Shown: positions 371 to 4,329 of the stretch, in pieces
Layout of the letters: each line of letters begins with the position of its first letter
How positions within the stretch are numbered: position 1 is the stretch's first letter
Origin: Brevibacillus panacihumi W25
Lineage (GTDB): Bacteria > Bacillota > Bacilli > Brevibacillales > Brevibacillaceae
Length of the DNA stretch: 64,000 nt
NCBI RefSeq assembly: GCF_000503775.1
Contig: NZ_KI629782.1
Location: 992,001-1,056,000 of the forward strand
Reading direction: 5' to 3'
The notes under the pieces: generated by a model
What the model was told of the DNA's origin: nothing
What the model saw: only the letters and a program-made list of their open reading frames with translations
Databases searched by the model: none
Program-made: the position numbers and the translations under genes

Positions 371-2068
371 TTACAGGGACATCGGAGAGGAAGCCAATTC
401 TTCTGCCGGCAACTGCAAGGTAAATCCAGCTTCTTCTGTTTCCGGCAGCTTCTCTTCAAGGACAGCAAGTTCCAGCACTTGTGACACGGTAGATACGGGG
501 ATGATCTCGATTCCCTTCATCTCGGCAAAAATGGACTGCCAATTCTCTTCCGGGATCAGGACCCGTGTCGCTCCAGCCAGACGTGCCGCTTCTGCCTTGG
601 CTACCACGCCGCCGACTGGTTTTACTTTTCCGTGGATGCTGACTTCACCCGTCATCGCCAGCAGGTTATCCACCGGCACTTCCCGGATGGCGGAGTAGAT
701 CGCCGTCGCGATGGTAATCCCGGCAGAAGGTCCATCGACGGGTACACCGCCGGGAAAATTGATGTGCAGATCGTAATCATACGGTTGCACGCCCATGCGA
801 TGCAGAACGGTCAGCACGTTTTCGATGGAGCCTTTGGCCATCGATTTGCGGCGGATTGTCCGGCTTCTGCTGCCCATTTCTTCTTCCTCTGCCATCCCGG
901 TCATGGCTACCCGGCCTTGGCCTTTTGCGGCTGCAAGAGAGGCTGTCACTTCCAATTCCATGACACTGCCCATATTGGGACCGTATACCGCAAGTCCGTT
1001 GACCAGTCCCACCTGCGGCTGGTCATGCACCTGCTTTTCCATGCGGGGTGATTTCTGACTGCTGTGCATCACCCATTCCACATCAGATGCCTGGATCACT
1101 TTTCTTTCTTCTGTCAGGGCAATCCCAGCCGCAATCTGCAAGGTGTTGATTGCCTCGCGTCCGTTCGTCGCGTAGCGTTCGATAACGGAGACGGCGTCGT
1201 CCATGATGGTCATCTCCATTTTCGGCACAGCCGTCCTTACAATGCTGCCGATCTCAGCCGCTTTTAACGGGCGGAAAAAAATCTCCAGGCAGCGGGAACG
1301 CAGCGCCGCTGGCAATTCGTCCGGCAAACGAGTCGTCGCTCCGACCAGACGGAAGTCAGCAGGCAAGCCGTATTTGAACACGTCGTGGATATGGGAAGGG
1401 ATCTGTGTATTTTCCTCACTGTAATACGCGCTCTCCAGCATTACCTTGCGATCTTCCAAAACCTTGAGCAGTTTATTCATTTGCACCGGGTGAAGTTCCC
1501 CGATTTCGTCGAGAAAAAGCATTCCGCCGTGGGCTTTGGTGACTGCCCCGGGCTTTGGCTGAGGAACACCCGCCTGACCAAGCGAGCCAGCTCCTTGGTA
1601 GATGGGGTCATGCACGGAGCCAATCAATGGATCGGCAATCCCCCGTTCGTCAAAACGGGCAATCGTCGCATCAATCTCGATAAACTTCGCGTCTGCTGTA
1701 AAAGGGGATAAGTGGTTTCTTTTGGCTTCTTCCAAAACGACGCGGGCTGCTGCCGTCTTTCCCACTCCTGGAGGGCCGTAGATGATCACATGCTGGGGAT
1801 TGGGGCCGCATAATGCGGCACGCAGCGCGCGCAATCCATCCTCCTGGCCGACGATCTCTTCCAGCTTTGCAGGCCGTGTTTTTTCCGAGAGGGGCTCCGT
1901 CAATGCGATCATGCGCAAGCGGCGCAGGGAATCCAAGTCCTTTTTCGATTCTTTTTCCGAGGAGTTCTTCGTACTTCTTTGTGCGCGCAAGAGGTTCCAA
2001 AAATACGTTCCGATCACGATCCCGACAATCACTTCAATTACGGCAATGACTAACGTTGTATAGTTCAT
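371..2068 (-). CDS. lonB: ATP-dependent protease LonB
   Basis: This 565-residue protein matches the size and architecture of Bacillus LonB, the membrane-anchored, forespore-associated Lon protease. It opens with one hydrophobic segment (about residues 3-24), followed by an AAA+ module with Walker A GPPGVGKTAA and Walker B GGMLFLDEIGE. The C-terminal S16 protease domain has the catalytic serine in DGPSAG and the lysine in VKPVGGVVAKAEA. The start at 2068 is preferred over an in-frame ATG 48 nt upstream because GGGAGGG lies 5-6 nt before it and the protein then begins like B. subtilis LonB. It is followed by a hairpin and then lonA. Confidence 0.95.
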   Translation of the reverse strand: MNYTTLVIAVIEVIVGIVIGTYFWNLLRAQRSTKNSSEKESKKDLDSLRRLRMIALTEPLSEKTRPAKLEEIVGQEDGLRALRAALCGPNPQHVIIYGPPGVGKTAAARVVLEEAKRNHLSPFTADAKFIEIDATIARFDERGIADPLIGSVHDPIYQGAGSLGQAGVPQPKPGAVTKAHGGMLFLDEIGELHPVQMNKLLKVLEDRKVMLESAYYSEENTQIPSHIHDVFKYGLPADFRLVGATTRLPDELPAALRSRCLEIFFRPLKAAEIGSIVRTAVPKMEMTIMDDAVSVIERYATNGREAINTLQIAAGIALTEERKVIQASDVEWVMHSSQKSPRMEKQVHDQPQVGLVNGLAVYGPNMGSVMELEVTASLAAAKGQGRVAMTGMAEEEEMGSRSRTIRRKSMAKGSIENVLTVLHRMGVQPYDYDLHINFPGGVPVDGPSAGITIATAIYSAIREVPVDNLLAMTGEVSIHGKVKPVGGVVAKAEAARLAGATRVLIPEENWQSIFAEMKGIEIIPVSTVSQVLELAVLEEKLPETEEAGFTLQLPAEELASSPMSL

Positions 2069-2192
2069 CTGAATCCCTCCCATACGATTCTGGCAGCTAT
2101 TCATCCCAGGAAACATCTATAAGCTTTACCAAGTAGTATTGCCGCTTGCAGGGGGAGGTAAACCATGCTTCCTGTTGTTACCAGGCTTGTGT

Positions 2193-2300
2193 AGGCTCCT
2201 TGAAATGGTGCCGTAGGAGGAGAAGAAGATTTCCAGTCTGCGCTCCGTTCTGCGTCCTGCAAGGAAGCGGGAACTGTCCGCTCCGCGAGGAGTGGCGGGG
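2193..2300 (+). repeat. partial copy (left arm) of the ~200-bp palindromic repeat family
   Basis: About 108 bp here is repeated almost exactly at 2316-2423 (e.g. GGAGAAGAAGATTTCCAG, then AAGGAAGCGG, CTGTCCGCTC, GCGAGGAGTGGCGGGG). Unlike the complete copy, it stops at GGCGGGG and lacks the right arm, so it is a truncated or partly duplicated element. It lies in the lonB-clpX intergenic region. Confidence 0.85.
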
Positions 2301-2341
2301 ACACAGCACTCTTAAAAGCTCCTTGGAATGGGCTGTAGGCG

Positions 2342-2539
2342 GGAGAAGAAGATTTCCAGTCTGCACTCCGTTCTGCGTCCCGCAAGGAAGCGGAAACTGT
2401 CCGCTCTGCGAGGAGTGGCGGGGAACCGCAAAAGCAGCCAACTCACTGAAGTGATACAGGGTTGCGGTCCTTTTTCCCGCCTCTCCTCGCTCCGCTGGGT
2501 CGGACTTCGCAAGGAGCTGGTCTGGAAATCTTCTTCTCC
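2342..2539 (+). repeat. ~200-bp imperfect palindrome, complete copy 1
   Basis: An 18-bp perfect terminal inverted repeat (GGAGAAGAAGATTTCCAG at 2342-2359; its reverse complement at 2522-2539) encloses an inner inverted repeat (GGCGGGGAACCGCAA around 2417-2431 against TTGCGG...CCCGCC at 2462-2481). At the centre is a small hairpin, TCAC-TGAA-GTGA. The element is homologous to 2772-2971 in opposite orientation. It could be a MITE/REP-like repeat or a structured RNA; no coding capacity was recognised. Confidence 0.85.
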
Positions 2540-2771
2540 AGGTACGACGCGGTCTTCGAGCGTTTGAAAGCAGGGGCTGTTGGCAAAACATCTTGGAAAT
2601 CACTTTGCTATTCGGAAGTACAGTGCCTTAACCTAGCAACTACTTCTCCTTTTCCAGGAATAAAGACCAGAAACAAAATGGACTCCAATTCTGGTCATTT
2701 CTACGGCTTCATTTCATAAACCACCTTAGACTTGCGATCACGGTCTTTTATCCTCAATGGGTTTATTACAC

Positions 2772-2971
2772 GGAGAAGGGGATTTCCAGGCGCAGCTTAT
2801 GGCGTAGTCCAGCCTAGCGGAGCAGAGATTGGCGGGAAAAAGAATCGCAACCCTGCGCAGACTTCGAAGTGCTGGCTGCTTTTGCGATTCCCCGCCAATC
2901 ACTGCGGAGCGGACAGTCCCGGCACCCTTGCAGGACGAAGAGGAAAGCGAAGCATGGAAATCCCCTTCTCC
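2772..2971 (-). repeat. ~200-bp imperfect palindrome, complete copy 2 (inverted relative to copy 1)
   Basis: The terminal arms GGAGAAGGGGATTTCCA (2772-2788) and TGGAAATCCCCTTCTCC (2955-2971) are perfectly complementary. Inside, ATTGGCGGG...AATCGCAA pairs with TTGCGATTCCCCGCCAAT (2882-2899), and the centre holds ACTTCGAAGT. Read on the minus strand it aligns with copy 1 through the shared core GCAAAAGCAGCCA and the CTGTCCGCTC segment. The changes are compensatory: AAGAAG/CTTCTT in copy 1 becomes AAGGGG/CCCCTT here, and CCGC/GCGG becomes TCGC/GCGA. Confidence 0.85.
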
Positions 2972-2992
2972 CCTCTACGGCTCCATTTCAAG

Positions 2993-3026
2993 AAAAAAGA
3001 GGCTACTCCTCAATGGAATAGCCTCT
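2993..3026 (-). terminator. clpX rho-independent terminator
   Basis: On the minus strand, 18 nt after the clpX stop, AGAGGCTA pairs with TAGCCTCT across a 13-nt loop and is followed by a run of T. This ends clpX transcription before the palindromic repeats. Confidence 0.85.
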
Positions 3027-3043
3027 CTACATTCACGATACAA

Positions 3044-4309
3044 TTACGCCGTTTCGGAACGAGCGTTTTCTCCTTCTTTGGTCATCAACTGCGGCTGTAC
3101 CTTGTCGCGAACGGTTTCCTCAGTGATGACGCACTTGCTTACGTCGTCACGCGACGGCAGTTCGTACATCATGTCCAGCATGATTTGCTCGATGATGGCA
3201 CGCAGGCCGCGAGCGCCGGTGTTGCGCTTGATTGCTTCTTTGGCGATTTGCAGCAATGCGCCTGTATCGAACTCCAGTTCGACGCCATCGAGGCTCAGCA
3301 ATTTTTGGTACTGCTTCACCAAAGAGTTTTTCGGCTCGGTCAGGATGCGGATCAGGGTGTCCTCATCCAACGGCTCCAGTGTTGCCAGAACCGGCAAACG
3401 GCCGACGAATTCCGGGATCAAACCAAAGCGCAGCAGGTCTTCCGGCAGAACGTATTTCAGGTATTCGCCTGCTTTCAGATCGCCCTTGATGCCTTCGTTC
3501 AGATCGCTGCCAAATCCGATCACCTTTTTGCCCAGACGGCGTTTGATGATCTGCTCAATGCCATCAAAAGCTCCGCCGCATATAAACAGGATATTGGACG
3601 TATCGATCTGGATGAATTCCTGGTGCGGATGCTTGCGTCCACCTTGTGGCGGCACGCTGGCAACCGTACCCTCGAGAATTTTCAACAGGGCTTGCTGTAC
3701 TCCTTCACCGGATACATCGCGCGTGATGGACGGATTTTCCGACTTGCGCGCTACCTTGTCGATCTCATCGATGTAGATAATGCCTTTTTCCGCTTTTTCC
3801 ACATCGTAGTCTGCAGCCTGAATCAGCTTCAGCAGGATATTCTCCACATCCTCACCTACATAGCCAGCCTCTGTCAAAGAGGTAGCGTCTGCGATGGCAA
3901 ATGGCACGTTGAGAATGCGGGCCAGTGTTTGCGCCAAGAGCGTCTTCCCGCTACCGGTCGGACCGATCAGCATGATGTTGGACTTTTGCAGTTCCACATC
4001 CTCGATCTTCGCACCGGAGTTGATCCGCTTGTAGTGATTATATACCGCAACCGACAGCGACTTTTTCGCCAGATCCTGACCAATGACATAATCGTCCAGG
4101 ATTTTGCGGATTTCGATCGGCTTCGGAATCTCTTTCATATCGACTTCTTCTTCAGTGCCCAGTTCTTCCTGCACAATCTCGTTGCACAACTCGATACACT
4201 CGTCACAAATGTATACACCGGGACCGGCTACCAGCTTGCGCACCTGTTCCTGGGACTTGCCGCAGAAGGAGCACTTCAGTTGGCCCTTGTCGTCATTAAA
4301 CTTAAACAT
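3044..4309 (-). CDS. clpX: ATP-dependent Clp protease ATP-binding subunit ClpX
   Basis: This 421-residue protein is near-identical in layout to B. subtilis ClpX, the unfoldase that feeds ClpP. The zinc-binding domain has cysteines at about 13, 16, 35 and 38. Walker A GPTGSGKT is at 116-123 and Walker [11 protein letters not shown] follows, with the sensor and C-terminal small AAA+ domain after. The ATG at 4309 (MFKFND) is chosen over a GTG 9 nt upstream because a GAGGTG site lies at the right distance and the family starts here. Only 20 bp separate it from clpP, so the two are probably co-transcribed; a terminator follows. Confidence 0.97.
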
Positions 4310-4329
4310 GCGCGTCACCTCACAACAGG

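Follow-up and report, generated by a model that had tools for sequence, protein, structure and literature searches.

Two palindromes of about 200 bp lie between lonB and clpX of Brevibacillus panacihumi W25, within the window of 64,000 nucleotides analysed here (contig NZ_KI629782.1), and they raise the question of whether such sequences are kept as mobile DNA, as an RNA or as a signal of the chromosome. An earlier note, made from the letters alone, had read them as a MITE/REP-like repeat that is non-coding and selected for its fold or, alternatively, as an unrecognised structured RNA. The first part of this reading is borne out by ends that are paired in inverse orientation, by numerous copies with variable interiors and by empty sites, whereas the structured-RNA part is not favoured by the comparison with RNase P and Rfam given below.

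Two complete hairpins in opposite orientation, copies A and B, had been delimited at 2342-2539 and 2772-2971; these coordinates stand, as do the perfect terminal arms (18 nt in copy A, 17 nt in copy B). The two copies are the ends of one mobile unit (2316-2992), which is read on the minus strand from the clpX terminator: End B is followed by a linker, the inverted end A and a truncated extra end of the A type (Table 1). Both ends belong to the type that we call P1 and are bordered by related outer motifs; an end of the second type, P2, is absent from the window unit. The left-arm fragment noticed earlier corresponds to the truncated end, whose arm (2219-2301) is identical to copy A at 79 of 83 positions and is preceded, from about 2195 on, by an outer flank that is likewise homologous. 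The window as a whole has a negative GC skew, by which end B is codirectional with replication. The orphan motif within the linker adjoins a short hairpin and may be what is left of a third end.

Table 1. Features of the unit between lonB and clpX (window positions).
Feature	Position	Strand	Remark
lonB, context	371..2116	-	TIGR02902
Trailing end, second copy, truncated	2195..2301	+	outer flank to 2218, then 83 nt of hairpin arm
Outer end, lonB side	2316..2341	+	AAGCTCCTTGGAATGGGCTGTAGGCG, TIR-like
End hairpin A, P1 type, inverted trailing end	2342..2539	+	
Linker, 232 nt	2540..2771	.	between the two end hairpins
Orphan outer-end motif in the linker	2700..2716	-	94% identity to 2974-2990
End hairpin B, P1 type, leading end	2772..2971	-	directly behind the clpX terminator
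Outer end, clpX side	2972..2992	-	reverse complement CTTGAAATGGAGCCGTAGAGG, TIR-like; similar to the sequence outside copy A and outside the fragment
Terminator-like hairpin (2998-3026) and minus-strand T run behind clpX	2993..3026	-	element begins right after
clpX, context	3044..4318	-	TIGR00382

Further copies are abundant. A DNA search of the same genome returned 17 matches, comprising the three pieces in the window, one partly masked copy, two full copies matching at 69%, six short matches and five members of the P2 subfamily, which has the apical core in common with P1. The six short matches and one of the 69% copies sit in near-identical IS1182-family elements (NCBIfam NF033551). Within Brevibacillus, 25 of 26 genomes were matched, two of them with more than 110 hairpin places each. 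At the level of the order, covariance model R1 found the family in 36 of 39 genomes and in all seven genera, with 2 (G015) to at least 61 matches per genome; at the level of the class 33 of 250 genomes were matched, 16 of which lie outside the family of the window. Among those listed, matches in these 16 Bacilli genomes are weaker and score about 54-80 bits, except for G121 at 202 bits, and the copies of G121, as well as those of G038 inside the family, ride on IS1182. A scan with an exact pattern of the P1 core, which fits a single P1 type only, yielded 50 stretches, all from Brevibacillus (formosus, fortis, porteri, migulae, reuszeri and centrosporus). Plasmid and phage collections, in which records close to this genome may have been left aside, gave no match, and no description of this element was found in the parts of the open-licence PMC literature that were searched. 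Brevibacillus genomes contain hundreds of these small mobile DNA elements that end in two hairpins.

In general, a unit consists of an outer motif ending in GGCTGTAGTGGGGAG, a hairpin of about 200-220 nt, a linker or cargo, and a second hairpin in inverse orientation. Models R1 and R2 together located at least 124 hairpin places in G007 and at least 115 in G005, largely arranged as P1> linker <P2 units. Among the matches listed for these two genomes, the linkers between P1 and P2 measure 21-111 nt, mostly 59-70, and tandem units stand 10-24 nt apart, mostly 20-24. Because the junction spacer is alike in arrays at different sites, the arrays may descend from multimeric units. Besides paired units, the solo subfamilies P1b and P2b were found. 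G021, which belongs to a different lineage, places an alpha end (arm AAGAAGC) and an inverse beta end (arm AAGAATC) around a cargo of 139-2426 nt, which in the 17 regions compared is mostly unrelated; the exception is the related cargo of L318 and L324, and in part of L330. About 45 nt inward of each hairpin are common to the G021 units before the interiors diverge; accordingly, the ends act like those of a transposon and the interior like a replaceable part. Solo hairpins in tandem also occur, every ~286 bp in G009 (L040, L061) and, in a weakly matching subfamily, every ~353 bp in G003 (L333).

The earlier note had inferred selection for a fold from arm differences that compensate each other between the two window copies, and this compensation is not confined to them: Of the 47 arm pairs in a hand-picked set of 32 P1 copies, 23 have changed on both sides. 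Two outcomes that the note would have counted as refutation, a lack of other copies and arm differences elsewhere that do not compensate, did not occur. The covariation of these copies (0.308 versus 0.107 after shuffling) was reached by none of 500 shuffles and their number of further pair types by 7 of 500, while 96.7% of the cells are paired as compared with 85.6% after shuffling. For 99 distinct P2 sequences, in an alignment that was fitted to its own model, 23 of 47 pairs have likewise changed on both sides, with a covariation of 0.181 versus 0.074 (0 of 500 shuffles) and further pair types that 146 of 500 shuffles reached. Folded computationally as single-stranded DNA, copies A and B give z values of -7.1 and -6.7, and none of 200 shuffles is equally stable.

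Whether a fold is kept as DNA or as RNA should be visible in the intermediates, as RNA accepts G.U pairs and does not accept A.C pairs. The control was a set of 30 RNase P RNAs from the same order, out of 38 genomes matched, with a predicted structure instead of that of Rfam. Relative to the dominant Watson-Crick pair, this control has 95 double changes, 71 G.T, 8 A.C and 29 others. The corresponding counts are 130, 11, 22 and 17 for the 32 P1 copies, 281, 70, 42 and 52 for 119 P1 copies, and 187, 32, 52 and 34 for the 99 P2 copies. Consequently, the share of G.T in the sum of G.T and A.C amounts to 0.27-0.73 in the P1 and P2 subsets versus 0.82-0.90 in RNase P, and there are 3.4-11.8 double changes per G.T versus 1.3-2.1. 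The lack of a clear strand preference and the scarcity of wobble intermediates relative to RNase P favour a fold that is maintained as DNA. The compensation fits selection on single-strand hairpins and also a correction of one arm by the other via template switching. Correction alone would probably be insufficient in view of the conserved unpaired stretches.

In well-matched families the polarity of the elements follows replication and not transcription. The GC skew of G007 is still plus in the sample at 3.1 Mb and minus in that at 3.4 Mb, and for G005 the turn was assumed, not derived from skew, at 3.0 Mb. Among the matches listed, all P1-P2 units are codirectional with replication (24/24 in G007 and 24/24 in G005), as are all P2b solos (22/22 and 19/19) and P1 fragments (3/3 and 6/6); P2 solos obey in 3/3 and 2/3 cases and P1b solos in 16/19 and 14/17, with breaches in 3/19 and 3/17. 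Many of these sites are orthologous, so the counts of the two genomes are not independent. The gene background in the G007 samples (ORFs of at least 150 aa) is codirectional in 110/160 and 99/131 cases per half, about 72%. Beside oppositely directed genes the units still follow replication (L132, L133 and L250, the G005 counterpart of L135), where flanking genes are simple ORF picks, some of whose orientations are wrong or missing. In G021, which contains at least 26 pairs of the form > <, 15 of the 16 pairs read obey replication, 14 being scored by script and the fifteenth, L314, by eye because its arm is off by one letter; the breaches are the alpha-alpha pair L315 and a reversed solo, L332, and two beta-only places obey.

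In the genome of the window, where a local skew of at least 0.035 counts as clear, replication polarity is obeyed by all four P2 solos, by the L230 unit and by the leading end of the window unit; L229, a masked P1 fragment, disobeys, and the skew at L234 and L238 is unclear. P1 copies borne by IS1182 in this genome are codirectional in only one of the six cases with clear skew. The R1 matches of G003, which are mostly weak and were scored with left and right ends taken together, are codirectional in 38 of 59 cases (p 0.036). Y1 tnpA matches in G021 are codirectional in 11 of 11 cases, two of which lie in the unmeasured turn at 2.4-2.8 Mb. The near-constant orientation of the well-matched units suggests an enzyme that pastes them at the copying fork.

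The sites themselves were compared at the flanks. A terminator-like hairpin with a T run stands at 32 of 56 distinct P1 left flanks, as against 5 of 43 P2 outer (right) flanks and 94 of 291 positions behind long ORFs (Fisher p 3e-6 and 7e-4, respectively); the controls gave 6 of 56 for reversed P1 flanks and 12 of 400 for random windows. Few terminators were seen by eye in the flanks of G021, which makes the terminator a frequent site and not a rule. Two G022 loci (L208, L209) lack the unit that is present in G007 and thereby constitute clean empty sites. They put the left border of the unit only a few bases from the T run, and no target duplication is visible at either; that the unit is missing there could also be due to deletion. 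L210-L213 (G019, G024) are more diverged empty sites. Among the matches listed, most of the nine G007 sites tested are occupied in most close relatives, which indicates that the family is old there, with no recent jump seen; the shared sites differ in tandem copy number and in internal deletions.

Of the known systems, REP/BIME/REPIN elements come closest in design. As described in the consulted passages of PMC3116915 and PMC6006769, these have a GTAG/GTGG-like motif 5' of a hairpin, inversely paired ends and tandem clusters, and they are intergenic and non-autonomous, with TnpA_REP (RAYT) as the associated protein. The elements described here share the inversely paired ends, the tandem clusters, the intergenic position and the lack of autonomy. 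As to the motif, 82 of 116 P1 (119 distinct sequences less three without a recognisable foot) and 90 of 99 P2 have GT[AG]G no more than 12 nt from the foot, a resemblance weakened by the G-rich context and by a range wider than the 0-2 nt of REP. Unlike those 20-40 nt hairpins, however, theirs measure about 200 nt, their ends are mostly distinct families in fixed positions, and their replication orientation is strict. As both the size test and, among the loci fetched, the tnpA_REP test failed, we do not file them as REP/BIME/REPIN, although they follow the same design on a larger scale, with ends that are polar and mostly distinct.

A second comparison concerns replication. According to the relevant part of PMC5371812, IS200/IS605 elements use the lagging-strand template both as donor and as target, so that the way they point reflects replication. 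The structured subterminal ends and the replication-tied orientation of IS608, ISDra2 and derivatives (PMC5371812, PMC6006769, in part) resemble what we observe; the present hairpins are far larger, lack a tnpA of their own and often stand behind terminators. Group IIC introns, as treated in the sections seen of PMC3898094 and PMC10190682, target hairpins, for instance terminators, with a lagging-strand bias, and group II RT genes in the present genomes have the same bias; these introns comprise a ribozyme and an RT, whereas the hairpin element contains neither. The bcr1 and related Bacillus cereus repeats are MITE-like intergenic palindromes of Bacilli, 147-167 bp in length; in a comparison by description and not by sequence, the consulted passages (PMC2267715, PMC3446304) mention neither paired ends nor replication polarity for them. 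The group II introns of these genomes are presumably of class IIC.

We searched for an enzyme that could move the units, and none of the interiors read encodes a convincing one. Y1_Tnp is matched in 16 of 26 genomes, out of step with hairpin copy number, and is without a match in the copy-rich G003, G006, G012, G016 and G023. None of 30 fetched Y1 loci (~1.5 kb on each side) is flanked by P ends, for which reason a Y1 transposase was rejected as the mover; one of them, L075, has a P2 match ~1.3 kb away. A tnpA-bearing parent with the same ends was not found among the loci read. L314 of G021, where Y1 tnpA and tnpB stand between two P1, is not an autonomous unit: A complete IS200/IS605 element (994-2768), also found elsewhere without P1, is nested in its cargo. 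The cargo of L315 contains an ISL3-family transposase gene (1949-3175). IS1182 was dismissed as well. In this element of ~1973 bp, with ends GGAGAGCCCTGCAAAA, the P1 hairpin is a passenger between the left end and the transposase, close to the former, and in the genome of the window such copies ignore polarity. The element and its close relatives with this hairpin lie in L018 (482-2454), L019, L020 and L022 as well as in L188 and L189 (G038) and L187 (G121), and include members from another genus and another family.

We consider it, on balance and by little, probable that the family is a BIME/REPIN-like, non-autonomous, two-ended DNA element with unusually large hairpins, which a trans-acting enzyme inserts as single-stranded DNA at replication forks. 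Its observed basis is the two-ended design, the copy number, the compensatory arms without the wobble preference of RNA, the replication polarity, the frequent adjacency to terminators, and the filled and empty sites. The hairpins would fold in the single-stranded DNA of the lagging-strand template; the enzyme would read the two hairpins as an address and insert the unit as single-stranded DNA into the lagging-strand template, often at an exposed terminator hairpin; tandem arrays would arise from concatemers or later unequal exchange. This mechanism is suggested by a polarity common with IS200/IS605 and group IIC introns and a target partly common with the latter. Against it count the lack of a mover in the interiors read, the absence of a visible target duplication, the mostly old insertions, the 38/59 of G003 and the breaches of polarity.

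Other readings have to be weighed against fork insertion of single-stranded DNA. In a classical MITE, imperfect TIRs would be cut by a fork-coupled DDE transposase, for example via the sliding clamp, and the hairpins would be accessory. The ~18-nt outer motif common to both ends provides terminal inverted repeats, and the consulted part of PMC5371812 describes a biased orientation of Tn7 TnsE and several IS; yet the conserved part is the hairpins, no target duplication is visible at the two clean empty sites, and IS1182 in G000, the genome of the window and the sole DDE element checked, lacks such a bias (1/6). We regard this reading as unlikely but as a serious rival, since two empty sites are too few to amount to a failed duplication test. 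Under a further reading, group II intron RTs would move the units as a SINE-like retroelement, with partly the same target and with the same strand bias: RT genes are codirectional in 13/13 cases in G021, 5/6 in G007 and 10/10 in G003, the genomes counted, and one lies just upstream of a unit (L243), while lagging strands and hairpins of the terminator kind are what group IIC introns are described to use as targets (PMC3898094, PMC10190682, in part). Shared bias notwithstanding, a group II RT was rejected as the mover, as 30 fetched RT loci (~1.5 kb on each side) contain no P1 or P2 match and have no sequence in common with the elements better than 22 nt at E 0.01. Moreover, RVT_1 is without a match in seven copy-rich genomes (G002, G006, G012, G013, G018, G022 and G023) and the pair changes are not RNA-like, so we give a retroelement little credence.

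Conservation for an RNA function, as an sRNA or a 3' UTR element, would agree with the strong compensatory fold and with the many copies located behind genes. It appears very improbable, because G.T is not clearly preferred over A.C as it is in RNase P, because replication orientation is kept where neighbouring genes point otherwise, and because no Rfam family reaches its gathering score in the window, the three matches in the region standing at only E 0.5-1. Hardly credible at all is a polar chromosome signal for segregation or fork pausing that selection holds in one orientation without mobility: Near-perfect polarity and sites common to several species would be expected of it, but the interiors are variable, the matches per genome range as widely as from G015 to the richest genomes, empty sites exist, and alike ends stand on both sides.

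The insertion of single-stranded DNA at forks could also be conceived more broadly, as a Bacilli-wide fork-coupled class addressed by paired ~200-nt single-stranded DNA hairpins, served by an enzyme other than Y1 TnpA or a group II RT, and open to arbitrary cargo as in G021; this we propose only tentatively and with more doubt than conviction. The near-absolute replication polarity of bacterial repeats records how an element meets the fork. Here, polarity can be separated from transcription, large structured DNA makes up the ends, and IS200/IS605, group II introns and IS1182 are natural comparators in the same genomes. If a mover is found, it would reveal a system of the HUH type that works on giant hairpins or else a different route for the insertion of single-stranded DNA, and the pairs of G021 suggest that hairpin ends can carry foreign cargo.

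Several observations at single loci may be added. In L243 (G007), a group II intron RT gene (150-1500, TIGR04416) stops 90 nt upstream of a P1 unit; the bases in between resemble an intron 3' end, and a similar stretch borders P1 in L036, with no intron match to Rfam in either locus. The IS1182 copies of L018-L020 appear, by eye, to be lodged in the loops of terminator-like hairpins, with stem halves on either side. Finally, the orthologous units L214 and L215 have deletions within P1, one apparently between short direct repeats, as expected from replication across a hairpin.
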